From NCBI GenBank assembly GCA_026545225.1, contig CM048845.1:13268501-13332500 (forward strand): a DNA stretch of 64,000 nucleotides, written 5' to 3'. Origin of the DNA: Cornus controversa. Lineage: Eukaryota; Streptophyta; Magnoliopsida; Cornales; Cornaceae. The notes beneath the pieces were generated by a model that saw only the letters and a program-made list of their open reading frames with translations, searched no databases and was not told the origin of the DNA. Made by a program: the position numbers and the translations under genes. Below are positions 14,808 through 63,903 of this stretch, piece after piece; the stretch's first letter is position 1; the number at the start of each line of letters is the position of its first letter.

Positions 14808-15446
14808 CTTCTGAACTTTTTTAAAGTTGCAAAAGATCTAAACTATTTTTTTTTTTTTTAGTATTTCAATCCCTCGTCTTCTAAAAGATGACCACTTGAT
14901 CCCTAAATTATAATAACATATAAACACTTTAATATGACCATTATGTCATTTTCTCTATAAATATAGTATTTTTGAAATAAAAAATTTAAAAAAAAATAGT
15001 TAGATAAAATTTTTAAATAATAAGTTTAGAAACATAAAAAAATAAAAGGCCAATTGAATTTTATTTAAGATTTAAAAGTATATACATTTAATCAACTATA
15101 ATGACATATATACCTTTTTTTCTATAAGTAAAGTGTTTTTGAAATAAAAATTTTAAAAAATAATTGTTAGATAAAATTCTATTGGCGTTTTACTTTTTAT
15201 GTTCCTAAACTTATTATTTAGGAATTTTAACTATCTTTTTTATTTTTTTGAATTTTTATTTAGAAAACACTATATTTATATACACAAGAGCATAATGGTC
15301 ATAATAAAGGGTCTATATGTCATTATAGTTCTGTCGGGTCAAGTTGTCATCTTTTAGAAGATGATGGACTAAAGTATTAAAAAATATAGTTTAGGGCTCT
15401 TTTTGCAACTTTGAAAAAGTTAAAGGTTTTTTTATGCACTTTTGCC
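14757..15446. mobile_element. Hairpin-forming MITE (about 690 bp) upstream of BAHD gene 1
   Basis: Nearly the whole element is an inverted repeat. The left arm has GTTGCAAAAGATCTAAAC, TCTTCTAAAAGATGACCACTTGA and AATAATAAGTTTAGAAACATAAA; the right arm carries the complements in reverse order. An (AAAAC)n run sits inside the left end. A half copy of the right arm occurs at about 33290-33570. It has no coding capacity and begins about 210 bp upstream of the gene 1 ATG. Confidence 0.7.
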
Positions 15447-18436: not shown

Positions 18437-19680
18437 TACTCAGTATCAATTCACCAATCAAGCAGATTGATGGAATTGTCAGCGTTTGCAGGCGTGCCAA
18501 AGCCGTGATATCAATTTAATGTAAACAATTGGTCGAATACAAGTATCTCCTTTGAAGATTGTGTTGGATTAGGCGATTGACTAGGAAAAGATAATATGAA
18601 ATTTCCTATTGAATTCTTTTTTACCTCAATTAAAAGGACTTTTAATTGTATACAAAGAATTGCGAGACTGAATCGTAGCAAAGAGGGAGGTAGAAGGAGG
18701 GAGATAGAAAGTGAGGGAGATGTAGATAAAAAAACTAATTAGAGGAGGCCGAGAGCAAGAAATTATGAGGGAGATATAGATCGAGTATGAATCAGAGCAA
18801 CATTATAGGAGAATATTGTGAGAGAGATAGATTGCACGTGATGCAATTGTTTTGTTGTGGTTGTGGGAACCTTTAATATAGAGTTTCTTGCATTTATTTA
18901 TAGTAAAAATTTATATCACTGTATCTTCCTATATCTACGTTACAAGATAATATTGAAATAAACAATTTTCATAAAAAGAAACAAATCAGTTATATCCTAA
19001 TACACCATGTCTTCAAAATGCCAACAATGTATCTCATCTGCATTCTCAGTGTCCAAGTCCCACTCAACTTCGTCCCTTATTACAACCATCAGTTGCACAA
19101 AGTCCATGACTTGCCAAAAATCTTCCATTGTGACCCAATCCCACTAGAGTCCATGTATATTCTGTATAGCTCCATGATAGTAGCTTGATTGTCAACGTCC
19201 TGATCAATGAGCAATTTTATTACTACTTGGATTCCTTAGCGCGAATGACTCTATCTGTTATGCTTCAATAGAGTTTAAATTATATTCTGATTCACGTGCT
19301 CTGCCTAACTTTACCCATATTGGCCTATTATTCATGGTCATTAGCCTTTAAAGTCCTGTTTATGGTTAACTCTTTCATAGCCCTTTCACATGCATCCACC
19401 TTAGTCTTTCACTCTATATTAAACTCATTAGAGTCCAATTTACACTAGATTCCTTGCTTTCAGCCTGCAAAAATAATTATACAATCATATATGTACACCT
19501 ATACGTATATACGTAACTATATATTCATTCATATAGGTGACAGCTATTTATTTAGGACAACTTGCTGAAAGTCCTTAACCCTTAGAGTTTCCTTCGTAAT
19601 GGACTCTTTGTCAGCCTTACCCATTCGCCCAAAGGACCCCTAAGTTGGCTGCCAAGTGGCGCCACATTTAGGTGCCAACA
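18437..19680 (-). repeat. 3' LTR of the Tat element
   Basis: 1244 bp, starting TACTCAGTATCAATT and ending GGTGCCAACA on the plus strand. It aligns throughout with 30210-31467, with many substitutions, so the insertion is not recent. Confidence 0.9.
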
Positions 19681-19697: not shown

Positions 19698-19868
19698 AAT
19701 ATTTGGGATAAGCTACACCATCATATTCGCACGGACCAAGGGATTTGAATAGTCCCTCAGCCATTTAATTTTCCTATCAAATCAAAATAACTCCCCCATT
19801 TAAGTAACCGAATGGCCACACCATTTATAGATCATAACTGCCCTAGCCACATATTCTCCATATCATAC

Positions 19869-19876
19869 TATATAAG
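19869..19876 (+). promoter_or_regulatory. TATA box of the antisense mobile-domain gene
   Basis: TATATAAG lies 96 bp before the ATG at 19965, which has a good plant context (AAGCCATGGCT). The spacing fits a real promoter inside the retrotransposon, firing opposite to the element's own transcript. Confidence 0.55.
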
Positions 19877-19964
19877 GCTGGCTCACTTACTTTACCAAAT
19901 CACCAATATTCACCTCTTCCTCTCAATCCTCCTGTCAACAGCCCTAATTTCTCCCCACAAAGCC

Positions 19965-22900
19965 ATGGCTCCCAAGTTTGTTGACCTTCTTCTTCCCTCA
20001 GAAGATGTCACTTCCCATGACAAACAAGCTGAGGTAGTAATCAATGCTACAGTCCTCAAGTAACTTAATTTGGATGTTCTAGTTGAACTTCCAAACAACT
20101 CCAAGGGCCTTGGCCATACGTTCACAAAGGACATGCCTCCTACTATCTCTTCCTTTATACTATGGCAGAGAAACACCTTCTTTTTCAAAGTCTTACTACT
20201 ATCAATGAGCCCTCAACCACCAATTTCCATATCCGAATGTGGCACTCAGTCAACTCTGACTGGAACGAGTGGGTCGATCGACTTTCTACTTCTAAGTGGC
20301 AGATATAGAAATCATGTGGCATTTGTGATGCCATTCATCTCAGTACTCTGCCCATGGTTCAGGACAAGTATCTACTCTGTTTTGCACCCCTCTTCTGGTC
20401 GATTACCACTAATTCTCTCTATCTACTTTGTGGAATGTTTTCTCCCATTATTAAAGACGTTTACATGTTAACGAGTCTAAAGGCTGCCAACATCAAAGTC
20501 ACATGTCTTTTACCGGAGTCAATAATAGCATTTAAATGCCCTACAAAAGCCACAAGAACGAAGGTCACAGTGGCATCCTATACTTATTTCATGAGAGTGA
20601 CCAAGAAGACTGTTGGACTGGTCGAGAACGAGGAACACATTGCGTTATTGCTCTACTGGCTAAATAAATGTCTTCTTTATGTTCTAGCCCTTCCAGTCAT
20701 AAAGGACCTACTTGAAATTGCTCTACCTCTGGTCGAAAGTAAGACCCTTGCCCTGGCCACTTTTGTGCTCTCCATCCTTTACAGAGGTCTCTACGACTTA
20801 CTGTCGACCCATTATGTCCATTCATGGGATCCCTTTTAGTTATTCTAAATTTGGCTAAGAGCTTACTTCCCCGACTTAAGTGTGGAGATGTCCCCCTTAG
20901 GTAATGTCTCTTTGGTTTCTTTCTGCTATGTCACTGCCTTACCCAAAACTCAGTCTTTCAAAGATTGTGTCAAATTCTTCATTCACTATCGCCATCAACC
21001 AATACCTCAACTGCTTCCTTTTGCTGACTCACCTTAAACTTTCATTACGCTGCAACCTCCCACCAGCTCGTCTACTAATAAGAACTGGATGATTATAATG
21101 TCTCTTAGGCTAGTTTCCTAATAGGTCAAAACCTCCATTATAGCTCTGCTCCTTTGTACTCACCCACTAGTCGCGTGGGTGTGAAATTTTACAATTTTAC
21201 CCAAATGGCGAGGCAATTCAGCCTTGTGCAAATGGTCCCCTTGCCTCTTTATCTACCTTATAACCAATCCTTCGATAAGAGGGTTCGATTCTAGGAGACC
21301 AAACACATCCAAGACATGTCTGATAAGAACAAGAATGCTTCAGATCGATTTCAGCTTTAACCCTTCACTTCCCAACCTCAGACTAATCCATCCTTTGATA
21401 TGTGGTGGGCCTCTCACATCACCTTAGCCATGGACGTGAATGAAACTTTGCTCTTCTAACATCTCCCAAATCCCTTCAATCTTTTGGCCCTTAGCTCTCA
21501 AAGGGACGAATCCTCTCCGGTGGTTTCTCCCAAAAAGGATAGGAGTCTGTTGCAAAGGCTATGGCAGATCCTCCTGTTATCAGTGCCCCTACTACCACCA
21601 GGACTAAATTGAAGTCTAAATAAGGTAATCTTAATACAGATTCTATACTTCATTCCTCATTCCTAGATTGCTTTACTTAAACCCTATTTTGTGCACTAAT
21701 CTTCCAACTATACTATTAGTGGCCAGCAGATTGATCTGACTGCGGACACAGATTCGCAGGCTAAGGAAATTTAGAGTTGACCTGTTTATAAGGTTAAAGC
21801 AAAACAGCCTCTACCTCCTAAGGTAATCTCAGGTCACTGGCTCGTTGATTCTTTTTCTCCATAACTATCTTAATCGTTTTTCTATTCAGCCTAAAAGAAA
21901 GAAGACCATAGCTAAAGGTTCCCCAAAGGGTACCAAGCTTGTCAAAGACCCCTCTGCAAACACCAAATCTGGTTCGAATAATGAACCTTTGATCAAGAGA
22001 AGCAAAAAGATTGCAAGCTCCACCCCACAGGTACTTCCATTTTCCCTTTCTTCACCATTCTGTTGATGACAATTGAGTTATATTCCTCACCATCCTATTC
22101 TACAAGCCGATGTTGGCACTGCTCCTTCGGATCAGTCGTTCCTTCCCACTGAAGAGGTCGATGTCCCCCCTCCTATCTTAGATGAAAGTAGCAAATCAGC
22201 CATGGGTCTAGACCCCTCTACAGTATCTCCCTTAGCTCAACCGACCACCTTAGCCACCAGAAATGTGGGCGAGTCCTTTACTCCCATCAAAGAGGTGTAT
22301 AGTCTTCCTTCAACTTTCCTTATACTTCTTGTCTTTTCCTGTTTCCTCATGCTACTATATATTTTTTTCAAAAATAGTTTCAATCTTTGGCCTTGCGACC
22401 TGCTAGTGGATCCTTTTCCGCAATAAAAAAATTAATTCCAATCCTTAGTTGCCTCAATTTTGAAGGATAGCTCATCGACCAGTACCAGTCCTCCTACCCT
22501 TCTGGTACCCTCTGCTCAAATATTCGAAGATGCTAAAAAGGCCCTCCAAAAAATCCTTGAATGGAACCTTTTGGATCTGCCATCCATGGTGAATGAGATC
22601 TCGAACTTGTTAGCCACCATCAATCTACATGGGAAACTTTCCCTAGTTATGTAGGCTACTGTTGCTTCTTTTCAAGTGCAGCTACCTGCCATGGTCAACT
22701 CCACCACTGAGGTTGCCAATGCGATCTCCCAATTTGAGGAAAAATATCAGGCTGAAAACACACTGGGCACCAAGATCCTGGATATCGTAGCTAAGTTTGG
22801 CAAGTTCGATCAAGTGAATGATGGGCTCAGAAATGAAGAACAACAGTTTCAAGAAAAGCTTGTCTGTGTCCAAGCTGCCAAGGTCGATGTCACTTCTTGG

Positions 22901-23035
22901 GCTAATGCTTTGTTAGAAAAGACTAATCAACTCCCCCCCCCAGCATACTGCTTTGAAGGCTGCCCTTCTAGAGTTAAAAAAGAACAAGGTTCTAGCCGAA
23001 CTCAACCTATAGCAGACCAAGCTTTTCTGGGATAG
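19965..23035 (+). pseudogene. Plant mobile domain (aminotransferase-like, MAIN/MAIL type) gene, antisense in the Tat element
   Basis: Pieces of a plant mobile domain (PF10536-like) lie in order on the plus strand. They start with MAPKFVDLLLPSEDV at 19965, then a WNEWVDRL / CFAPLFWSITTNS / LCGMFSPIIKDVY region (about 20250-20470). EEHIALLLYWLNKCLLY and LALATFVLSILYRGLYDL follow (about 20620-20800), then LARQFSLVQMVPLPLYLP (about 21205-21260). A basic, Ser/Pro-rich part (21845-22420) and a C-terminal coiled-coil-like part (22460-23035) complete it. Stops and frameshifts break it, and some gaps may be introns. In host plants such proteins (MAIN, MAIL1) act in the nucleus in silencing and genome stability; capture by Gypsy and Mutator elements is known. 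It ends about 300 bp before the integrase end. Most likely decayed cargo. Confidence 0.75.
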
Positions 23036-23349
23036 TATGAGGTCAAAATTTGATGCATTATGAAGATTAGTTAGACTATTTTTAGACAAATACTTTGTAG
23101 TTTCATGAATTGTGGTTGTAACTGATCCTTTATAAAATGACTTTTGACATGGTGCTTTGGTTATCCAGGAAAAACACTTACATTATTATCAAGCATAAAA
23201 GAGAAACAAAAGAAAAGGAAAAATAAATAGGAATACAGAAGAAAATGTAAAACTATACAACACACTTATGCCTCACAATGATTCTATAGTTATACTTCAC
23301 CTAAATAGGTGAAGTGGCCTAACCAGACTCCCTTTCCAGTCACTCAAAT

Positions 23350-24653
23350 ATAGTTGGTCGATATTCCTTCAGATAGATACGATTGGTTGGCCTGGGATGC
23401 AATTCTCCATTCAAGTCTTTCAACCTGTATACACCTTTATTGACAATCTCATGAACCAAATAAGGGTCATCCCAATATGGGACCACTTACCATAAACTCT
23501 ATTATACTTCCCAACTGGCAAGACCACTTTCCATACTAGGTTGCCTTCAGCAAATGACTTTGGCCTAACTTTTTATTGTAGGCCTTCATCATTTTTCTCT
23601 TATGATCTCTGATCTAATCCAAAGCATCCAGGCGTATATCATCCAAATCCTCCAGCTCGATTAACATGGCGAGATTGTAATCCGTGGGTTGTAAGTTCTG
23701 CTGCAATGCAACCCTAGTCGATCGTACATTCAATTCCATATAAAGAATGGCATTGTGCCCATATGTTAATAAGTATAGAGTGATGCATGTACTTGTCCTT
23801 TTAGAATTCCTGTAAGCCTAGAGGGATTTTGATAATGACTCATGACAACACTTTGGGCTCTCATTGATCATCTTCTCGATAATTCCAATGAGTACTTTAT
23901 TTGAAGCCTCAACCTGCCCGTTACTTTGGACGTAATAAGGTGTCGAGGTTACCATCTTAACCTTCATTTCTTTTCCATAGGCTAGCACCTCAACTGCTCT
24001 GAATACAGTTTCCTTAGCGGCCACAGTAAACTCAGGAAGACCGAAGCGATAAAAGATATATTTCTTAATAAAATCAATCACTACCCACTAGTCCACTAAT
24101 CGATAAGCCACATCCTCTACCCATTTGGTAAAATAATTCATAGCCACGATGATTCAATGGTGTCCTCCTACTAATAGTGGGTTGATTTTGCCAATAAGAT
24201 CTACGGCCAATCCTTTGAATGGCCATAGTTTAACAATCAGTTGCATTTTCCTGGCAGCGACCCTTTGAATCGGCCTATGCTTTTGGCAAGCATTACAGCC
24301 TTTACATATTTTAGGTAATCTTTTAAGATCCCTAGCTAGTGATACTCATATCTCCTAATCAGCCAACGTATTTTGATTCCTACTTGACGAGCCCCACAAG
24401 TGCCTTCATGAACCTCAAACAGAATCCTTAAGGATTCTATTTTACTGATGCATTGGAGCAATAGCCTATCCTCTACACTTTGCTTATATAACTTGTCAGC
24501 CAACAATAAATACCTCATGACCTTTCTCCTGATCCTCCTATCCACATGCCGATTAGGATTAATTACAAAATCGATCAAAGGGTATCTCCAGTCATCATCT
24601 TCTAATGTGTTGATATCTACCGCAAACGTATCATCCGTGGTTAAATTCCTCAC
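23350..24653 (-). pseudogene. Tat element integrase (broken)
   Basis: A minus-strand integrase in pieces. The zinc-binding part runs from 24653 (VHEGTCGARQVG, RRYEYH) to CNACQ near 24280. The catalytic core follows with AVDLIG (about 24210), FTKWVE, a region where the second Asp is not seen (FTVAAKETVF), and SNGQVEASNK with the Glu (about 23910). A C-terminal part with GPILG and VERLEWRIA runs down to about 23350. Stop codons and frame changes separate them. Integrase inserts cDNA into the genome; this one cannot work. Confidence 0.8.
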
Positions 24654-24699
24654 CTTAGTCGAAGGGAGGCTTCTTCATGATACTCTGATCAGCCTTTCA

Positions 24700-25260
24700 A
24701 CCAACCCTTCTGAGACCCTGACCCCCGAGTCTATCTGGGCTAAATCATTCGCCTCTTTGTTAAATTCTCTTAGCCGATATTCCATCTTGATAGTATCAAA
24801 TTGTTCCACTAGTTAAAGAGCCAATGAATGAAACAACCTCAACTGTCAGGCCAGGCATTGAAAGTCTTCAGATATTTAGCAGAGAACCAGATTCGAATCC
24901 CCTACGATATACACATCCTTAGCAGACATTTCTAGCAGGATTTCCAAACCAATAATCACAGCCTCATATTTTGCTTGGTTATTAGAGCATTTAAAGTCCA
25001 AGAAGAAGGAAAACGTTATCTTTCTCCCGTTTGGCGAGATGATCATTATTCCTACCCCGACACTGTCGCTGGTATTGGAGCTATCAAACATCAATGTCCA
25101 AGGAGTCATAAATAAGATTGTCATTTCTTGCTTGTCTAAGATATATGGATCGATATCAGTTGATGGATGATCATCCAAGAACTCAGCCATTGCCCTTCCC
25201 TTAATCGATTTTTGTCAGATATAAACAAAGTTAAATTCCATCAAGGCCAACGACCACTTA
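24700..25260 (-). pseudogene. Tat element RNase H domain
   Basis: The frame at 25190-24876 shows the RNase H acidic residues in order: Asp in LMFDSSNTSD, Glu in KYEAVIIGLE and Asp in IVGDSNLV. It lies between reverse transcriptase and integrase as in Gypsy pol, removing RNA from the cDNA hybrid. Closed by a stop soon after the last motif. Confidence 0.75.
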
Positions 25261-25689
25261 CCAATTTGGCTTGTGATCAAAGGTTTTGATAGAATGTATC
25301 TGATGAAGTTAGTTTGGCAAATCACATAAACCAACACCAGCAACATATACACCCTCAGTTTCATAGTGAAAAAGTATAAAGCCAGACACAATTTCTTAAT
25401 CGATGCATATCTATACTCGATTGAGGAAAGAACCCTCCTCTGATAATAGATGGCTTACTCATTTCCTAACTCATTATCCTAAGCCAACATACTTCCGATC
25501 GACTCCTCAGCTACTGACAAATAATGTTTCATCGGCCACTTCTTTCTTGGGGGCATCACAACAGGTGGATTAGTTAGATATTCCTTTATTCTTTTGAATT
25601 TTTGTTGATGTTTGTTATCCCACACAAAATCATCCTGGGATTTTAATTTCAATAGAGGAGAAAATATGTAATTCTTTCCAGAACAATTC

Positions 25690-26696
25690 GAGATGATGCG
25701 TTTTAGGAAGTTTATCTGGCCGATGAACCGCTGGAGCTATTTCTTATTACTAGGTGCCATGGCATTCATGATTGCCTTGGTTTTGTTCTGATTGACCTCT
25801 ATACCTCGTTGATGTACCAGAAATCCCAAAAAATTCTCGACCAACACCCTAAAAGCATATTTAACAAGATTCATTTTTAACTTATAAGCATACATCCTTT
25901 TAAAGGTGGCCCTAAGATGTATCAAGTACTACCTTTGGGCTGATGACTTCACTACCACGTCGTCTATATAAACCTCCATAAACTGGCCAATCGTATCATG
26001 GAAAATGGCGTTCATTGCCCTTTGGTACGTGGCCCCAACATTCCTTAACTCAAAGGGCGTGACCACCCATTAAAATGTTCCAATTGACCCAGGACACCTG
26101 AACTCCATTTTTGCAATGTCTCCTTTGGCCATATATATCTGGTTATAACTTGAGTGCCCATCCATAAAAGACATGATCTCATTCTTAGCAGCCGAATCTA
26201 TTAACTGATCAGCCATCGACATAGGATACTCGTCCTTTAGGGTGGCCAAATTCAAATTTCTAAAGTTAATACTCACTCTTAGCTTTTCATTTTTCTTAAT
26301 GATAGGTACCACATCGGATATCCACTCTACATACCTAGTCATTCGGATAAAGCCTGCCTTCAAAAGACTTTCTATTTCCTCTTTAACCTTTGATACCACT
26401 TCTTGAGACATCTTTCTAGGCAATTGTTTGTATGTTCTATACCCTTCATGGATTGGCAGCTTATGTTCCACTAGCTCTCTTGACAAACCTAGTATCTCCT
26501 CATAATTCCAAGCAAAATAGTCTTTAAATTCTTTCAACAATTCAATCATCTCATCCTGGAAATTAGGCTCCAAGAGAGCGCTAATATAGGTAGACCAAGG
26601 ATCATCAATTGTTCCTAAATTCACTTCTCGCAAAGGATCTTGTACTTCTACTTTGAGATCATCTAGTTTTGCTAGAGTTAATTCTAAATTTGCCAA
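25690..26696 (-). pseudogene. Tat element reverse transcriptase
   Basis: The minus-strand frame 26696-26070 covers the N-terminal half: HKLPIHEGYRTYKQLPR, VKEEIESLLKAGFIR, VPIIKKNEKLRVSINFRNLN and SFMDGHSSYNQI. The active-site YIDD is read across the following break at about 25971-25958. A thumb and connection part follows at 25925-25737 (KCAF-like MNLVKYAFRV, FLGFLVHQRGIEVNQNK). At least one stop or frame change lies between the halves, so the enzyme is inactive though its active-site motif survives. Confidence 0.85.
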
Positions 26697-27559: not shown

Positions 27560-30159
27560 TGATCTATGTTATCTCTGGTGTAACTTTCTCAATCACGTGG
27601 TCGTTCTCCATCTCAGAAGGATCGGTCACTACACATAGATGGCCAAGTTTTGCTTAAAAAATGGCTGGCAAAATGAATTATATGTTACACACAACTCTCT
27701 CTAGGAAGTTTCTGAACTTAATTCTATATTTTGCCATATATTTTGGATCTTGGTCAGACTAGTCTGCCTCTTAGGAAGATTCTTCTTCAACAAATGCCAT
27801 ACATATGTTTGTTGCCTCATCTAAAGAAAGCTCTTGATCATAACCATCAGCCAACATTACTTGGCCGACAGCTTATTTCCTTCTCAGTTCAGCTCTCCTC
27901 CATTGCATTCTTCGCTTCTAAGCTCGAGTAGGAGTACCTTTTAGTATCACATTTCTAGAAAATTTAGGATGAGTTCCTTTTGTCCATCGGTCATGGGCAA
28001 CCACAGGTGGTTTTATCATCCTTGGCATATCAGTGATGTCTTCCTTTCTTACCCATATCTTTGGTTGATTTAGTACTCCTTTTTTGAACCTTGGTAGGTT
28101 ATGATGAGTAGGAAGTATCTTGTCAAACATCTCTCTATCTCAACGTATGGTGACTCCTTCTCATGGTTTGATTCTTTGGAAGACTGATTGATTTACAGCC
28201 ATCTAAGCAGGCCGATCTTGAAGGAACACGATCCTCTCATGGACACTCTTTCGTACACCTTGCCCCCTTAGTCCAATCTTTTTGTCACCATAATTCCCAA
28301 GAGTCTTACAAATTGGATAACATCCCTTTTCAATAGATCCAACTGAGCCTCTCATAGTTTTCATTCCAGTTCCTCTATTATCTTGTTATTTGAGGCAGTG
28401 GATAATGTTCTTTCATTAACCTTTGATTGTCGATCGTTAGCCTTTAGTGCAAGGCTGACTACATTACTCGAAACAATTATAGGAAAAGAGTTGTTGTCAA
28501 CCCCCAAACTTTCATTTGTTTATCTGGAAACTTCAAGGTGCCTTCGTCGATCGCTTTATGCACAATATTACGAAACACCGTACAATTGTTAGTATTATGT
28601 GTCTAAAAGTTATGGCATTTACAATATTCTTTTCCCTTAAGCTCGACAGCTGATGGGATCTTTTGCCCTTTGGGCAATGTGATCTGTTTATCAGTTAATA
28701 GATGATCAAAGATCTTATCAGCCATAGACAGATCGAATGAGTAAAATTTGCTTGCATCGGCCAACCCCCTTTTAACAGGATTGGCAAATGATGAAGTAGA
28801 GTGTGAGCTTCTAGTGGCTGACTTGACTCTTATTAGACTTTCACATATGTATGACTTCTTAATGTGGACCTCAGCCCAAATTTTTCTTGAGATCTCATTA
28901 ATTTTCGCCGAGAAAACCTCATCATTGGGATCTTTATAATAAGTTCCTTTTGATGAAATTTTTCTTTCTTTTTCTTCATTGAGGATCAATTCATATCTTG
29001 TAGCCCTATCGACTAGTTCAAATATATCATGGAATTCTATGCCCTCAAACCTCTTTCTGTGTTCAGTATCTAAACCACTAAACACTTTTGTCGGGTCCTC
29101 CTGAACCTTGTTATGAAAGTCTCGACCGTTTTCCTAGGCAATTAACTTAGCCTGGACAAATCAACCAAAGTAGTCTCTAGTTCTGGACGATAAAACTGAG
29201 TATGAAATAACTCCTCCATTTACTGCCAATTCATTACAAAATTTGGCCTCAAATTAGAATACCAAGTAAAAGTTATTCCAGTTAAAGAACTGGGGAATAG
29301 TCTTAATTTTCACATATGGTTAGCACCAGCCTCTCCACATTGGATTGTGAAACAACCGATGTGTTCCAATGTTATTGATTTACCTCTCCACTAAATGTAA
29401 AAAAGTTAGATATTTCATATCTAGTAAGATATTCAAGTAAATCATATTCTTCAGGATAAGGTTTCCTAAAGGTAGGTTGATTAGTCCTTCTTAATCCTAA
29501 AACTGGATAGATATCATCAAATTAATTTTCAAGAACGTTTGGATTCATTGGTTGCTCATGTTCTTGCCTCCTCGGTGGCTGATTATTCTCTATCTGCCCC
29601 CTGGGTGCAGATGTAATCGAGGGATCTTGCCTTCTTCCCCTGTTAGGGTTATCTCCAAGGTTGATTGGACCTATGGAGTCATTTTGAATATGCACCTGTT
29701 GTTACTCTGGCAGCTGTCTGTTCATAGTCCCGGTTGATAATTGATTTTTCTCTACACCAGGTTGAAAACTGCTACATGGCAGATTACTTTGTATTGAAGG
29801 ATGAGGTAAAAGTAATATTAGACCTTTCAATTTTTGGTCAACCTGCTAAGCATTTGGCTGATGAGTCGAATCTTGGGTGATAGAGCTCTGAATGATCGGT
29901 ATGTTCTGGACGGTCGATTGTCTTATCATTTCGTCTATTCGATCATTCGTGCGAACACTAGTCCGGGTGATCTTCTTGTCCAGTCGACCCATTTGGTGTT
30001 AACCTCGCCAAGTTGGACGCGCATTGCATGTATGGCATCCATTAGGACTATTATATCTGATAGATCGGCTGCAGAGCCACCTAAAGGCTGAGAGATCTCT
30101 TCCTCTTCAGTATCATCGCCAGGGGCTGAGTTCTTCGCAGACCTTAACTTGGGCAGCAT
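27560..30159 (-). pseudogene. Tat element gag (broken)
   Basis: The likely start is the ATG at 30159, about 50 bp past the LTR and leader, opening with MLPKLRSAKNSAPGDDTEEEE. Further segments include a capsid-type part at 29085-28603 (RFEGIEFHDIFELVDRATRY, KFYSFDLSMADKIFDHLL, then YCKCHNF, the start of a Cys/His knuckle) and a basic part at 28130-27918. Several stops and frame changes separate them. The order and motifs are those of Tat-type gag. Confidence 0.75.
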
Positions 30160-30209
30160 ATTCTCAATTCTTTAGTACTTTCTCAAGTCCCACCAAGCGT
30201 GCCAAAATA

Positions 30210-31467
30210 TATTCGGTATCAATTAATAAGCCAAGCAGACCGATTGAATTGTCAGCATTTGTAGGCATGCAAAAGTCGTGATATCGGCTCGATGTAAATA
30301 GTTGGGCAAACACAAGTATCTCTTTTGAAGGTTGTGTTGGATCGGGCTATTAACTAGGGAGAAAAAATACGAAACTCCCTATTGAGTTCTTTTTTGCCTC
30401 AATTAAGAGGACTTTTAATTGTGCGCAAAGAATTGCGAGACTGAATCGTGGCAAGGAGGGAGGCAGAAGGAATGAGATAGTAAGGAGGGAGATAGAAAGT
30501 GAGGGAGATGTAGATAAACAAATTGATTAGAGGAGGCTGAGAGCAAGAAATTATGAGGGAGATGTAGATCGAGTAAGAATCAAAGTAATATTTTGGGATA
30601 ATATTGTGAGAGAGATAGAATGCATGTGATGCAATTTTTTTGTTGTGGTTGTGGGAACCCTTAATACAGAGTTCCTTGCATTTATTTATAATAAAAATTT
30701 ACATCACTATATCTTCCTACATGTATGTTACAAGATAGTACTGAAATAAACAATTTTCATAAAAGAAACAAATCAGCTATATCCTAATACACCATGTCTT
30801 CAAATCCCCAACAGTGTAGCTCATCCCCCTTCTCAGTGTCCAAGTCCCACCTAACTTTGTTCCTCATTATAGCCTTCAATTACACAGAGTCAATGGCTTG
30901 CCAAAAATCTTCCATTGTGACCCAATCCCACTAGAGTCCATGTATATTCTGTATAGCTCCATGATAGTAGCTTGATTGTCAACGTCCTTATCAATGAGCA
31001 ATTGTATTACTACTTGGATTCCTTAGCACGATTGACTCTATCTGTTATACTTTAGTAGAGTTTAAGTTATATTCTGATTCACGTGCTCAACCTAACTTTA
31101 CCCATATCGGCCTATTATTTATGGTCGTCAGCTTTTAGAATCCTATTTATGCTTAACTCTTTCACAACCCTTTCGCATGCATCCACCCCAGTCTTCCACT
31201 CTATATTAAACTCATTGGAGTTCAATTTACACTGGATTCCTTACTTTCAACCAACAAAAATAGTTTTACAATTATATATATACACCTATACGTATATACG
31301 TAACCATATATGCATTCATATAGGTGCCAGCTACTTGTTTAGGACAACTTGTTGTAAGTCCTCAGCCTTTAGAGTTTCCTTCGTAATGAATTCTTTGTCA
31401 GCCTTACCCATTCGCCCAAACGACCCCTAAGTTGGCTGCCAAGTGGCTCCACATTTGGGTGCCAACA
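30210..31467 (-). repeat. 5' LTR of the Tat element
   Basis: 1258 bp, partner of 18437-19680, ending GGTGCCAACA before the CCTTC duplication. Inside the element it is followed, on the minus strand, by the leader TTTGGCACGCTTGGTGGGAC. Confidence 0.9.
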
Positions 31468-31760: not shown

Positions 31761-32120
31761 TCTTATAATCCGCAATGTATTTGATCCAGTTAAAGGCCAA
31801 TACCCATGACCATTTCTAATAATATCAGTAACTTTTGCATGAAAATCATTTCAAAAATCTTGAATAGGTCTATTATTCATATGTAAAACTTATAAATCTT
31901 ATTCATGATATGTCTTCTTTAGTTCAATGAAAATCATGTGCAGATCTTTTTGTTTACTCCTTCAGTCTTCTATTAATTATCTCATTAAGTAAATAGGAGT
32001 TGATCTACTAGGCAAAAATCCAAATGAATTATCAGATATTGAGGTTTTTTTCCTTAATCTTTGTTCAATTATCATTTCCCATATTTTCATTGTAAAACTC
32101 ATTAGTTTTATTCCTCTATA
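31757..32120 (-). pseudogene. RTE-type LINE reverse transcriptase fragment
   Basis: Minus-strand translation gives NYRGIKLMSFTMKIWEMII, then FGFLPSRSTPIYLM, the order and spacing of motifs around the palm domain of plant RTE-clade LINE reverse transcriptases. Further downstream, towards 31757, the frame is broken by several stops. Only a small internal part of ORF2 is present, with no 3' tail. Confidence 0.6.
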
Positions 32121-32149
32121 ATTATCACCTTTATTTTCATAAATTGTAT

Positions 32150-32620
32150 AAATCCAAATTATAGAACAATGATTTGAAATATTTAGGTTCCAAAAATTCT
32201 TATTTCTTTTATCAAACAGTGTTTACCCACAAAGACTTGGGATTAGATTGAAGAACATCCCACATATGATTAACCATTGCAGCTTTTGTTCCAAGAAATG
32301 AGATCCATCAGACCTAAACCACCCTTCCTTTTTAGGTTTATTAACAGAATCCCAAGCAAGTCTATTCCCACCATTGCTCAAAGAGGAGCCTTTCAAAACA
32401 AACTTTATAATGACATTATTAATTTCTTATATAACAGCTTTGGGAAGAATAAAATGAGATACCCAGTATACTTGCCCAAGCCAATTGAAGCCTTCTCCTA
32501 AAAGATAAGTATCTCCTAGCCCATGATTTTGCTCTCATAGTGATTCTATCTACCAAATCTTTGCAATGACCATATTTCAATTTAGTTGATATGACAGTGA
32601 GGCATTCTTTTAATTTCTTT
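32150..32620 (-). pseudogene. L1-type LINE ORF2 C-terminal fragment
   Basis: On the minus strand: DLVDRITMRAKSWARRYLSF and RRLQLAWASI (about 32560-32450), then after frame breaks KGGLGLMDLISWNKAAMVNH and SLWVN (about 32330-32220). These are the signatures between reverse transcriptase and the zinc-binding tail of plant L1 ORF2. Broken by stops and truncated at both ends; distinct from the adjacent RTE piece. Confidence 0.6.
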
Positions 32621-33050: not shown

Positions 33051-33765
33051 CTAAGAAGCATGGACACGGATACGGGACACGGGTACGACACGACACGAAC
33101 ACGGCGACACGGCAAATTTCAAAAAAATAGGACACGACACGGCGGGGATACGGCTATGAAATAATATATTAATATATATTCAACAAGTTAATCAATATCC
33201 ACAATACCATAAATTTAACAATAAAAAAATAATAAATCACACAAATACTTCAATTTATTATCAAGTAATTAATGTATTTTCAAAAAGGATGTTCATTATA
33301 TTGATTTTTTTATTTTTTTTTGTTTCTAAATTTATTATTTAGGAATTTTATCTAACTATTTTTTATTTTTAAAATTTTTTATTTTAGAAAATACTATATT
33401 TATATAGAAAAGGGCATAATAGTCATATTAAATGATATATGTCATTATAGTTATTTCAAGGGGTCAATATGTCAATTTTTAGAAGATGAGGGGCTGAAAT
33501 GCTAAAAAAAATAGTTCAAAGGGGTCTTTTTGTAACTTTGCAAAAGTTCAGGGGTTTTTTTGCACTTTTAAAAATTACAAAATGTACCCCGCCGTGTCCC
33601 CCGCGTGTCCTTGCCGTGTCCCCCGCGTGTCCTTGCCGTGTCCCAGCCGTGTCCTAAAAAAAAAAATTCCAGGACACTTCTACGGAGTGTCCGACACGTG
33701 TCCGAGGAGTGTCCGAGTGTCCGACACGGATACGGCACCCCTATACGAAGTGTCCGTGCTTTCTA
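33051..33765. mobile_element. Mutator-like non-autonomous element with GACACGG subterminal repeats
   Basis: Ends AAGAAGCATGGACACGG and, reversed, AGAAAGCACGGACACTTCG, flanked by the perfect 9-bp duplication GTGTATATG (33042-33050 and 33766-33774), the size made by Mutator-type transposases. Both ends are filled with short GACACGG / CCGTGTC motifs that make this the most GC-rich patch in the window. A half copy of the hairpin MITE family (about 33290-33570) is inserted in the middle. No transposase. Confidence 0.75.
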
Positions 33766-53205: not shown

Positions 53206-53737
53206 TGAAAAATAATAGGAACTTTTCTGAATTAGCTAGTTTTAGCAAGAAAAGTTTGTTTAGACTTTTGCCAAACACTTAGTGAGCTTATGTATTCAAC
53301 TAGTGAGAATGCAAATGTAAATACACTATCTAGAGGCTCAAAGTAAAGATAATATTGATTGATTATACATTATATCAAACATTTGGTGTGCAGTTAGTTT
53401 TAGCAAATGAATAGTCAAATGAGTAATTCTTTCAAGCAACAATTTAATCAATTCCACAACTCAACCAACTTACTCTAAGCATTCATCGAATCCTTCTTTA
53501 CAATGCATATAATTATATCAATCAAAAAATCTCATATTATTCATAAACAAATCATTTAGAATGCAAATGAAAATTTGATTAATTAAAAGGTTTGCCAAAT
53601 TAAAGGAGTTAAAGAGTTGGAGAAATGCAAACTCAAGATATCATGGTTTACATGCGGTTTGGCACCTCCACGGTCACCTATGTCCATACCTCAAGAGCTA
53701 GGACCCCATGACTTAAAATTCCCAATCAAAGTTATTC
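53206..53737. other. Non-coding filler between two retroelement fragments
   Basis: No gene or ends recognised; probably decayed retroelement sequence. Confidence 0.4.
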
Positions 53738-55394
53738 TCCGTAAGCCTAATCTATCAAGATGAGTTACCAAATGGGCGATTGAGCTAGGAGCCTATGACT
53801 TAAAATATGAGCCTTGAACTGTAATAAAGGGACAGACAGTGGTAGATTTTTTGCTTGAGTATGAACTAGAAGATAATGAGGAACCATAAATTCTTACTCC
53901 ATCTGAATGGAAGCTCTATGTCGATGGATTGTCAACACAAACAAGATCAAAGATCGGTATAGAAATTTAAACTCTTTATGGAACCGCTTTACAACAAGCA
54001 ATACACTTAGAGTTCCCGACATCAAATAATAAAGTCAAATATGAAGCCTTCTGGAAAAACTGAGGCTAGTAAATGAGCTCTAAGTAAAAAATTTACAAGT
54101 CTTTAGTGACGCTCAGTTGATTGTGATATAAGTCCATGGAGACTACTCCCCAAATGATGATCGCATGAAGGTTTAATTACAAAGACTTGGTAGACCAGAA
54201 ATTCAAATACTTTGATCAAATTAGCATTTTCCAGATTCTGAGGGAACAAAACTTAGAAATAGACAAGCTAACATGTTCGGCTTCAGCCACCCAAACCGAG
54301 CTGATCAGGATTGTCCCGATCAATACAATGGTTGTCCCAAGCATTCATGCTAAAAAAATAAGTATTGGTTCTCCAAACAGAACCCAGCTAGATGGATCCC
54401 ATAAAAGCTTATATGATCAATGGAAGCCTGACCTCGTCGAAAGATGAAGCAAGGAAAATCAGGATGAACTCGCTAAAATATGCAGTAATTAGCGGTCATT
54501 TGTACAAAAGATCATTCTCTAGACCCTATTTGAAGTGTGTAACGTCATCCGATGCAAAAGAGATTCTCACAAGGACCCATGAGGCATATGCGAAAATTAT
54601 TCAAGGGTAAAATCGCTAGTTCACAAAGCTATTACTCAAGGATATTTCTAGTCATATATGGCTCAAGATACTGAAGAGTGTACTAAAAGATGTGATAAAT
54701 GCTAGTAACATGCAAGAGTACTCCATCATCCCCCTGAAGACCTTACCACAATGGCCAATCCTTGGCCTTTTACCAGATAAGGGGTGGATTCAATAGGACC
54801 ACTTCCTAAAGCAGCCAACAACAAAAGGTTCGTTCTGCTAGCCACGAACTATTTTACAAAATGGGTTGAGGCAGAAGCTTATGCAATAATCACCAATGTA
54901 CAAGTAAAGAGGTTCATACGAATCAACATTATCTGTCGTTTTGGTTTGCCATAATCTATTATTATGGATAATGCCAAAAATTTAAATAACCAGTCAACAA
55001 AGGCTCTTCAAAAAATATGTGATCAACCTGAAGTTTTCATCAAAGATCGTATCCGCAAGGGAATGGTCAAGTAGAGATAATAAACAGGACCATCTTCGAA
55101 TGCATCCGAAAGAAGTTGGAAGCTTGAAAGGAAAAATGGTTAGAAGAATTGCCCAAAGTAGTCTGGGCATACCGAATAACCCCCAGACAACTAACTAGAG
55201 AAAGCCCACTCTATCTTACCTACGGTTCGAGGCAGTGATACCAACTAAACTCTCTACTCCTACGATCAGGTCAGATGTGATAGAGAGGGGGCATAACAAT
55301 CAACTGTTGGAACAAAGCCTAGACTTGCTAGAGGAAATAACAGAAATGGCTCAGATCAGGTTGGCTTCGTATCAAAGAATGGTGCAAAATGGGG
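53738..55394 (+). pseudogene. Ty3/Gypsy RNase H and integrase (broken)
   Basis: In order on the plus strand: KWAIELGAYDLKYEP (end of the reverse transcriptase connection), WKLYVDGLST with the first RNase H Asp (about 53915), and DAQLIV. A linker follows (54187-54447), then RTHEAYAKIIQG and RCDKC of the zinc part, VDSIGPLPKAANNKRFVLLA with the integrase Asp, and IIMDNAKN with the second Asp. GNGQVEIINR with the Glu comes next, then LPKVVWAYRITPRQLTRESP and the C-terminal PTKLSTPTIRSDVIE up to about 55385. Several stops and frame changes make it inactive. Gag, protease and most of the reverse transcriptase are missing. Confidence 0.85.
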
Positions 55395-62496: not shown

Positions 62497-62589
62497 TTGA
62501 CATTATTTAAAGAGGCTGTGCTCTCCTTTAGAAGAAGCATCATCAACTTTCTTACTTTGTGTTTATTTTAGGTAGCGCCAAAAGGGAAG
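62497..62589 (+). promoter_or_regulatory. TATA-like box and leader of BAHD gene 2
   Basis: CTTGACATTATTTAAAGAGG is shared with gene 1 (CTTGACACTATTTAAGGAGG) at the same distance, about 80 bp before the ATG. The leader shares CAACTTTCTTA and TTTGTGTTTATTTTAGGTAGC. Upstream of about 62490 the two genes no longer resemble each other. Confidence 0.6.
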
Positions 62590-63903
62590 ATGGTGGTGAG
62601 TAATCACGTTGAGGTGATCTCTAGAGAGATGGTTAAACCATCATCTCCAACACCCCATCACCTTAGCAACTTCAAGCTTTCATTCCTAGACCAAATTGCA
62701 CCACCAGTTTATATTCCTCTCATTTTCTTCTATCAATCCGAATTGGGATGCGATATTGATCGTGCCCAAAAATCTCAATTACTAAAACAATCTTTGTCGG
62801 ATACCCTAACTCACTTTTACCCATTAGCCGGAAGGAAAAAAAATGATGTTTGTATCGATTGTAATGATGCTGGAGTTGAATATGTTGAAGCCCAAGTTCA
62901 TGCTCAACTCAAACATGTTATCGAAAACCCTAATATTGAAGACCTAAAGCAATACCTCCCAATTGAACCATATGGCACCAGCGTTGCTATGGGTAGGGAA
63001 GCACTCCTTGCCATCCAAATCAACTTCTTTGATTGCGGAGGGTTGGTGATTGGCTTGTGTATTTCACACAACATAGCCGATGGATCGTCACTAGTCACCT
63101 TCACCAATGCATGGGCTGCCACAGCTCGTGGGGATATCGAAAATGTAATCACCCCTAGCTTTGATTTGGCATTTCATTTCCCACCAAGAGACTTATTAGG
63201 GTTTATGCCAAGCATTGGCATTACTACAGAAAAGATCATGACAAGAAGGTTTGTGTTCGATAAAATGAAGTTGGCTACACTCAAAGAGGCCATCGCCGCC
63301 TCCTCAGCCATTGGATCACAGGTGAAGGATCCCACTCGTGTTGAGGCTGTCTCAGCTTTAATATGGAGCCATTTAATAGATGTGGCAAAAAATAGATCAT
63401 CTCCCATGACGATATTTGTTGCAACCCATGCAGTGAACTTGAGAAGCAGAATGAGTCCACCTCTCCCGGACCACGCCTTGGGGAACATATGGAGGATCGC
63501 GAATGCCTTATCAATGGAGGGTGAGATAGGATTTGGTGAACTTTTGAGCAAGCTGAGGAGCGCGATAGGGAAGATCGACAGCAATTATGTGAAGGGCCTA
63601 AAAGTTGGTGATGGGTACTTGGATTCTGTCAAGAAGGCAAGCGAGAATTTCTGTAAGAGTGAGGTAGAGTACTGTAATTTTAGCAGTTGGTGTAGATTTC
63701 CTGTATATGAAGTGGACTATGGTTGGGGTAAGCCAGTTTGGGTGTGCACCACAACCTTGCCTTTTAAGAATGTGGTCATCTTGATGAGTACTAGTTGTGG
63801 GGAGGGAATAGAAGCATGGATCAATATGCTTGAAGATGACATGATCGTGCTTGAACGTGATCATAAGCTCCTTTCTCTTGATGCCACTAAAATCAATGCC
63901 TAA
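62590..63903 (+). CDS. BAHD acyltransferase, vinorine synthase-like (gene 2)
   Basis: A 437-residue single-exon BAHD acyltransferase, about 48 differences from gene 1 plus a two-residue insertion (Ile-Ala, about residue 234). The catalytic HNIAD is at residues 160-164 and DYGWG at 376-380. The frame is open from the conserved ATG to TAA, with no damage. It is predicted to be cytosolic, using an acyl-CoA donor. Differences cluster at residues 325-360 and at 263-272, regions that in the family lie in the C-terminal domain and the domain-connecting part, so acceptor preference could differ from gene 1. The 3' end shares about 35 bp after the stop with gene 1. Its promoter lacks the hairpin element found upstream of gene 1. 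Confidence 0.93.
   Translation: MVVSNHVEVISREMVKPSSPTPHHLSNFKLSFLDQIAPPVYIPLIFFYQSELGCDIDRAQKSQLLKQSLSDTLTHFYPLAGRKKNDVCIDCNDAGVEYVEAQVHAQLKHVIENPNIEDLKQYLPIEPYGTSVAMGREALLAIQINFFDCGGLVIGLCISHNIADGSSLVTFTNAWAATARGDIENVITPSFDLAFHFPPRDLLGFMPSIGITTEKIMTRRFVFDKMKLATLKEAIAASSAIGSQVKDPTRVEAVSALIWSHLIDVAKNRSSPMTIFVATHAVNLRSRMSPPLPDHALGNIWRIANALSMEGEIGFGELLSKLRSAIGKIDSNYVKGLKVGDGYLDSVKKASENFCKSEVEYCNFSSWCRFPVYEVDYGWGKPVWVCTTTLPFKNVVILMSTSCGEGIEAWINMLEDDMIVLERDHKLLSLDATKINA

Follow-up and report, generated by a model that had tools for sequence, protein, structure and literature searches.

What is a protein-coding gene doing on the opposite strand of a retrotransposon, and does it belong to that retrotransposon at all? 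The question is raised by a 64-kb stretch of the Cornus controversa genome (contig CM048845.1, positions 13,268,501 to 13,332,500; hereafter the window), in which a decayed Tat retrotransposon on the minus strand has, between its integrase and its 3' long terminal repeat (LTR), a gene with a plant mobile domain (PMD) on the strand opposite to pol. Our answer, to which we give a probability of about 0.75, is that we are looking at the dead remnant of a conserved Tat accessory gene that, judging from its sequence, would be separately transcribed and spliced and would encode a PMD/coiled-coil-like protein. Comparison of copies demonstrates, at the level of sequence, the position of the gene, its family-wide presence, its coding constraint, and its exon-intron structure.

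The antisense gene and its place in the family

The mobile domain named in the original prediction was recovered by a profile search of the plus strand, with a match to PF10536 at positions 20309-20839 of the window (E=3.1e-13; 50.1 bits, with the cut-off at 34.9) that spans profile positions 1-169 of 347, so that the open PMD piece amounts to half a domain only. Upstream, a TATA box (TATATAA, 19869-19875, plus strand) and an ATG at 19965 in the good context GCCATGGCT can both be read from the sequence, as had been claimed, and the box, the ATG, the frame, and the tail recur in related copies, so that they are more than chance. By copy alignment, the box is kept in seven of the nine copies whose aligned DNA reaches the site (L028 has TATTTAA and L013 is unaligned here; L034, whose fetched piece begins downstream of the box, stands outside the count), and the start ATG is retained in 8 of 10 copies. 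The stop codon of the gene lies at 23061-23063. Several in-frame stops, the earliest 32 codons past the ATG, and frame breaks disrupt the gene in the window; this copy is a pseudogene and dead. Neither blastn nor a translated search revealed another copy of the gene in the remainder of the window. Among viral contigs, the PMD piece had three pattern matches, of which none was a relative.

Relatives elsewhere in the 772-Mb assembly were located through the PMD, integrase, and tail pieces. The PMD piece has at least 151 matches in the genome, including itself, the next best being 72% identical among the matches listed; 104 rows were used after second fragments of one place and most distant-subfamily rows had been dropped. 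From 150 integrase rows we used 88, nearly all with at least 54% identity, and dropped two of 55-56% and all lower ones. Among the matches listed, 47 of these 88 have a PMD within 8 kb, and in all 47 it is antisense and 3' of the integrase, with no pair in any of the other three arrangements; the other 41 have no PMD within 8 kb among the matches listed, which is not equal to absence. Widening the distance to 15 kb gives 54 antisense and 3', 1 in another arrangement, and 33 with none among the matches listed. The tail query found at least 93 matches, the 17 weakest of which were dropped; among the best 76, a listed PMD lies within 8 kb of 54, always (54/54) with the tail on the same strand and 3' of the PMD, and 22 have no PMD within that distance among the matches listed.

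Twenty loci around Pfam PMD matches were also fetched for pol inspection. Window-like pol pieces are present in 14 of them, and the PMD is antisense and 3' of the integrase in 13 of the 14 (L009, L011, L013, L014, L017-L020, L022-L024, L026, and L028); pol matches are absent from the other six (L010, L012, L015, L016, L021, and L027). At L025 (1668-4458), a PMD element has integrase pieces on the strand opposite to its reverse transcriptase (RT) and RNase H and looks inverted or nested. The antisense PMD is thus common to many copies, as expected if it is conserved among family members. Two outcomes had been named that would speak against the gene, the lack of a mobile-domain match and a private insertion; neither is what we see, because the PF10536 match is there and the gene is family-wide.

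Coding constraint was assessed in ten copies of the window subfamily (window, L013, L014, and L028-L034). The ratio of nonsynonymous to synonymous divergence (dN/dS) of the PMD piece has a median of 0.11 and a range of 0.06-0.31 (34 of 45 pairs measurable, 11 saturated), and in the frames displaced by 1 and 2 the ratio is 1.08 and 1.48. For the tail piece (22655-22930) the median is 0.21 (22 of 28 pairs), with 0.83 and 1.31 in the shifted frames. Judged by these ratios, the PMD and tail pieces are under purifying selection between copies. When the window is compared with L013, L014, and L028, pol has dN/dS values of 0.09-0.19 (five measurable comparisons, the others saturated), the PMD 0.15-0.18 (2 of 3 measurable), and the tail 0.18-0.24, and the accessory gene therefore appears to be constrained about like pol or slightly less.

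These data bear on whether the antisense transcript itself might be the functional product, pairing with the genomic RNA and regulating pol or triggering small RNAs. Antisense transcription of such a region has been reported in maize Grande, where regulation was proposed (PMC7264820), and the conserved TATA box agrees with such a role, but selection on amino acids would be left unexplained by it, as would the scarcity of stops over the PMD piece, which has 0-2 per copy in the PMD frame, whereas every one of the other five frames has 5-17 (10 copies). We consider an RNA product distinctly improbable as the main function. RNA and protein roles are compatible and can coexist, with RNA regulation secondary to the accessory protein that we favor.

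Exons and introns of the antisense gene

The original prediction described a 3-kb gene and overlooked its introns; the gene stands, its uninterrupted form does not, since the window copy is a pseudogene and comparison of copies gives five exons and four introns. A single unspliced ORF (open reading frame) of 3 kb was considered and rejected on that comparison. All features lie on the plus strand. Exon 1 (19965..21624) holds the start codon, the N-terminal part, and the PMD; it is supported by the PF10536 match and dN/dS and carries stops and frame shifts in the window copy. It is followed by intron 1 (21625..21694), exon 2 (21695..21822; chi2 of three-base periodicity in divergence, 45.7), intron 2 (21823..21889), exon 3 (21890..22030; chi2 37.0), intron 3 (22031..22105), exon 4 (22106..22294; chi2 16.0, the weakest among scored exons), intron 4 (22295..22371), and exon 5 (22372..23063; chi2 79.9, with dN/dS and tail linkage in addition), which contains the tail and the stop. 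The acceptors of introns 1, 3, and 4 are lost in the window copy. As for the basic and coiled-coil tail that had been proposed, the basic part is found as a PKRKK stretch that opens exon 3, and the coiled-coil-like character of the tail in exon 5 is a judgment by eye only.

Eight copies entered the intron alignment (window, L013, L014, L028, L029, L030, L032, and L034); L031 and L033 were excluded because other sequence interrupts both, and L027 because a long distance separates its PMD from its tail. Four short GT-AG introns are common to the eight copies, with some sites broken in some of them: the donor GT of introns 1 to 4 is present in 7/8, 6/7, 8/8, and 7/8 copies, and the acceptor AG of introns 2 to 4 in 8/8, 7/8, and 5/7 (three of the four acceptors were counted by eye). 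The five splice dinucleotides that are kept in the window and can be scored by column have majority shares of 0.86-1.0; the 188 dinucleotides of intron interiors have a mean majority share of 0.48, and 12 of them reach 0.85. The five exon pieces show a period of three in their divergence between copies (chi2 16-273), and the phase is flat in each of the four introns, in the leader, and in the 3' flank (0.2-1.4); chi2 here ranks the segments and is no probability, because counts are non-independent across related copies. In six of seven lost acceptors (introns 1, 3, and 4; window, L028, L029, and L034; by eye), AA stands in place of AG, which would fit a methylation-linked C-to-T change on the other strand.

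When introns are allowed for, the antisense ORF also becomes longer in several copies of other PMD subfamilies. For each of nine copies, 60 control sequences were made in which the sequence up to the unspliced stop was kept and only the remainder shuffled; this stricter control replaced one that shuffled everything past the PMD, whose excess came partly from the first ORF. The frames of L018 and L019 lengthen from 621 to 1113 aa when two introns are removed (score 1077, where the controls reach at most 824 and 851), and L009 (563 to 904 aa), L020 (627 to 979 aa), and L026 (674 to 907 aa) exceed all of their controls, these lengths being those of relaxed settings, as stringent ones give no gain for L020 and L026 and a smaller one for L009. 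L018, L019, and L022 are near-copies and non-independent; L022 is frame-broken and was excluded from the stricter control. Aligned by eye, L016-L019, L022, and L024 have the GT of the first intron in 6/6 and its AG in every copy in which this site can be located, the intron itself varying in length, and the sites of the second intron are present in the five that retain it.

The same may hold for a second type of antisense gene. Antisense genes of the PMD and TRP28 types are already on record for Tat elements (PMC6317226, PMC5418596, PMC11963269, PMC7264820), and the TRP28 profile (PF04195) has at least 150 scored matches in this genome. Four such loci were fetched (L035-L038); they form two pairs, about 90-91% identical within and 80-83% between pairs over the gene, and the analysis is close to one comparison for that reason. 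Their antisense gene has four exon-like pieces with limits set by eye, the share of differences in one codon phase being 0.65-0.73 in the pieces, 0.36-0.49 in the gaps, and 0.39 past the stop. In three of the four loci, spliced frames of 475, 470, and 548 aa exceed control scores that reach 314-342; L037 has an early stop. Opposite-strand integrase-like matches lie downstream of the gene in three of the four. The TRP28-type antisense genes of this genome thus look split too, as far as their pattern of divergence tells.

Several points weigh against a conserved, spliced gene. The dN/dS values are rough because synonymous divergence is near saturation, and the minus-strand frame that shares third positions also has low pN/pS values (0.36 and 0.40), a mirror effect that is expected. 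The acceptor of intron 1 reads AG in only 4/8 copies, the column scoring covers window-kept sites and has the three acceptors lost in the window outside it, and periodicity is only weak in the N-terminal part and towards the end of exon 1 (0.40 each). Among other subfamilies, L010, L012, and L021 gain nothing by splicing over their controls (60 each), and L023, which goes from 945 to 1073 aa, is barely above its own (1055 versus 1052). In the TRP28 genes, the introns placed by the program disagree with the four periodicity pieces, in that the second piece is skipped in L035 and L036 and the second gap is read through in L038.

The intron-split structure of the Tat antisense PMD gene appears to be new, in that we did not find it in print. 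No description of introns in antisense genes of Tat elements turned up in the literature searched, a search that had key older papers outside its scope. The PMD extra ORFs of Tat/Ogre elements have the same domain and belong to the same superfamily (Neumann 2019, PMC6317226; Ikeda 2017, PMC5418596, PMD-A1/A2); in the passages at hand, however, PMC6317226 takes account of single ORFs from 250 codons upward and names no intron in PMD ORFs, and the word intron has 0 occurrences in the text of PMC5418596 available to us, whereas the window gene has five exons and four introns. The TRP28 antisense genes of Retand elements sit in the same place, past pol and before the 3' LTR, and are likewise antisense, and some of these elements have Smc-like second ORFs (Vicient 2025, PMC11963269); the window gene has a PMD in place of TRP28. 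That study sets a minimum of 600 bp for its ORFs, and the word intron is absent from its main text, whereas the TRP28 genes inspected here look four-piece. Gene23 of maize Grande is also antisense and 3' of pol, with its own promoter and a nuclear product, but unlike the window gene it has no PMD named and no introns mentioned in the portions of PMC7264820 consulted. Deltaretrovirus antisense genes are alike in their spliced, antisense, protein-coding arrangement, although protein and element are unrelated and the likeness is one of arrangement and not of membership (PMC8622228, in part).

The carrying element and its surroundings

The element is a decayed minus-strand LTR retrotransposon of about 13 kb (LTRs 31467-30210 and 19680-18437), with the target site duplication (TSD) GAAGG on both sides. 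The LTRs were recognized as a direct-repeat pair and by blastn alignment, the 5' LTR (30210..31467, minus strand) beginning with TGTTGG after the TSD and the 3' LTR occupying 18437..19680 (minus strand). They are 88.3% identical over 1243 ungapped sites, with a Kimura two-parameter (K2P) distance of 0.130 (computed with one extra base), and blastn gives 87% over 1262 columns. At substitution rates of 1.3e-8 or 7e-9 per site per year, this divergence corresponds to an age of about 5.0-9.3 My.

A primer-binding-site-like box, TTTTGGCACGCTTGGTGGGAC, can be read immediately past the 5' LTR (30187..30207), and all further pieces likewise lie on the minus strand. An open piece at 28603..29133 is assigned to the gag region by position and by eye; its Pfam matches are at chance level only (best E=0.11). 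In pol, the order is RT, RNase H (RH), a second RNase H, and integrase (INT). The RT piece (26070..26696; PF00078, RVT_1, E=0.0011, under its cut-off) is 66% identical in L011 and 75% in L013 over its full length, and the RNase H piece (25479..25736) matches PF17919 (RT_RNaseH_2) at E=1.7e-5, under its cut-off. The second RNase H, of archaeal type (24876..25214; PF13456, RVT_3, E=1.3e-4), lies between RH and INT and is the sole pol piece above its Pfam cut-off. The integrase zinc-binding piece (24336..24674) and core piece (23818..24087) were assigned by eye and by conservation, same-genome copies of the former being up to 72% identical across the full piece and the latter being 70% identical in L013 and 73% in L028; neither matches an integrase Pfam profile, and the core piece has one SeqA match under its cut-off (E=0.0035).

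The LTR pair with its 5-bp TSD and the minus-strand pol bear out the claim of a Tat retrotransposon in which integrase is followed by an antisense gene before the 3' LTR is reached. Ogre and Retand, Tat clades of angiosperms, are marked by an additional RNase H between RH and INT (PMC6317226, in part), and since the element has one there, we assign it to the Tat lineage of Ty3/gypsy elements (Ogre/Retand grade). The TRP28 profile PF04195, a Retand trait, is matched by 0 of 6 plus-strand open pieces (at least 80 aa) at E<=1, where decay or shortness of the pieces could mask a match. A PMD extra ORF is reported in 57% of Ogre elements (PMC6317226, in part), and its presence here points to the Ogre clade, as a suggestive and not a defining feature.

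Adjoining the flank of the 5' LTR is an RT fragment (31977-32222, minus strand; PF00078, E=1.9e-4, under the cut-off) that is LINE-like by eye, and pieces of another gypsy pol, 30-50% identical to the pol of the window element in a translated search, lie at 53725-55226. Inverted repeats at 14928-15047 and 33308-33432, with arms 84% and 92% complementary, flank the element at a distance of 18 kb from each other and are perhaps copies of a small transposon. Two intact transferase ORFs match PF02458 (13240-14562, minus strand, E=2.9e-86; 62572-63903, plus strand, E=5.3e-83); to judge by eye they closely resemble each other, they lie on opposite strands on the two sides of the retrotransposon, at a distance of about 48 kb, and they are presumably BAHD acyltransferases.

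Descent, possible function, and meaning

Host MAIN/MAIL1 proteins, which have a silencing role, share the PMD with the window gene (PMC5418596 and PMC7156037, in part), and the gene had been labeled MAIN/MAIL-type. We find no support for that label as given: among the 33 PMD rows of a tree, that of the window falls within a set of 16 rows labeled as linked to transposable elements (TEs) (100/99), and seven host-like rows lie on one side of a branch (99/99), apart from it. The tree draws on one genome, its labels were assigned by the analysts, six TE rows are without a pol match, and several long branches are flagged. Host-like rows come from L001-L008, 4-kb loci without pol matches (L002 is outside the tree). 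Seven of them, L001-L007, form a cluster of host-like PMD genes at C8:6638944-6923294, with stop-free matches, a 610-aa ORF in L001, and PF10536 scores of 364-400 bits, far above most TE-linked copies. Gypsy-borne PMDs have been reported as clades separate from genic ones (PMC5418596 and PMC6317226, in part).

We also weighed where the gene came from. With host-like PMD genes in the genome (the C8 cluster and L008), a recent private capture of a MAIN/MAIL-like host gene by the window copy is conceivable, but the gene is in the same slot in dozens of copies and TE-labeled and host-labeled rows separate in the tree (99/99), and we regard such a capture as extremely unlikely. A private insertion is refuted by the 47 of 47 linked integrase-PMD pairs in the same arrangement; a capture may have taken place long ago. 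It is also possible, though we hold it tentatively and below an even chance, that a DNA transposon or host gene was inserted as genomic DNA, introns included, into an ancestral Tat element and that the introns are relics of it. Introns in PMD genes, and apparently in TRP28 genes, suit this origin better than capture of a spliced mRNA, and MULE transposons also carry PMDs (PMC5418596, in part); against it, introns could have been gained later, and the two host-like loci inspected, L001 and L008, are single long ORFs.

As to the accessory gene itself, we propose that host Pol II would transcribe it as a separate mRNA from the TATA box by the 3' LTR and that this mRNA would be spliced into five exons, with removal of four short spliceosomal introns. 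Fully spliced sense introns are lost from new retroelement copies, the logic on which intron-marked retrotransposition reporters are built. The introns of the antisense gene are reversed in the genomic (sense) RNA; they would therefore go unrecognized there and survive reverse transcription, and antisense placement would permit a retroelement to retain fully spliced introns. Ogre and EVADE introns, also within plant LTR retrotransposons, differ in that they sit in the sense RNA and yield subgenomic RNAs, whereas the window introns are on the other strand, in a separate gene (PMC12786077, in part).

The PMD/coiled-coil-like product is probably nuclear, given its basic stretch and the nuclear protein of Grande gene23 (PMC7264820, in part). 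Our leading guess, somewhat short of an even bet, is that it may bind chromatin or host partners and lower the silencing of the element, because host PMD proteins act in silencing (PMC5418596 and PMC7156037, in part); interference with silencing has already been proposed for MULE-borne PMDs (PMC5418596, in part). The protein could instead help the element's own cycle, in nuclear import of the integration complex, in integration, or in transcription through activation of its own LTR. The basic stretch at the start of exon 3 and the nuclear Grande protein would agree with such a helper, the connection between PMD proteins and silencing suggests a different role, and we see a helper as possible at odds clearly under even. 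Some other action of the protein is rather unlikely.

It is doubtful, in our estimate, but worth stating, that Tat antisense accessory genes, PMD and TRP28 alike, might form one class of multi-exon, host-style genes, in which separate antisense ORFs would often be exons of one mRNA, antisense placement would allow introns, and the products would be nuclear anti-silencing proteins related to host PMD proteins. Sense introns that are fully spliced should be lost when a retroelement copies itself through RNA, and a selected, intron-bearing antisense gene present across retrotransposon subfamilies would be a way round this loss. Such genes would leave ORF-based surveys incomplete, and their introns allow a test of origin, by genomic DNA or by mRNA capture. 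It also becomes testable whether PMD proteins are where transposons and host silencing come into conflict.

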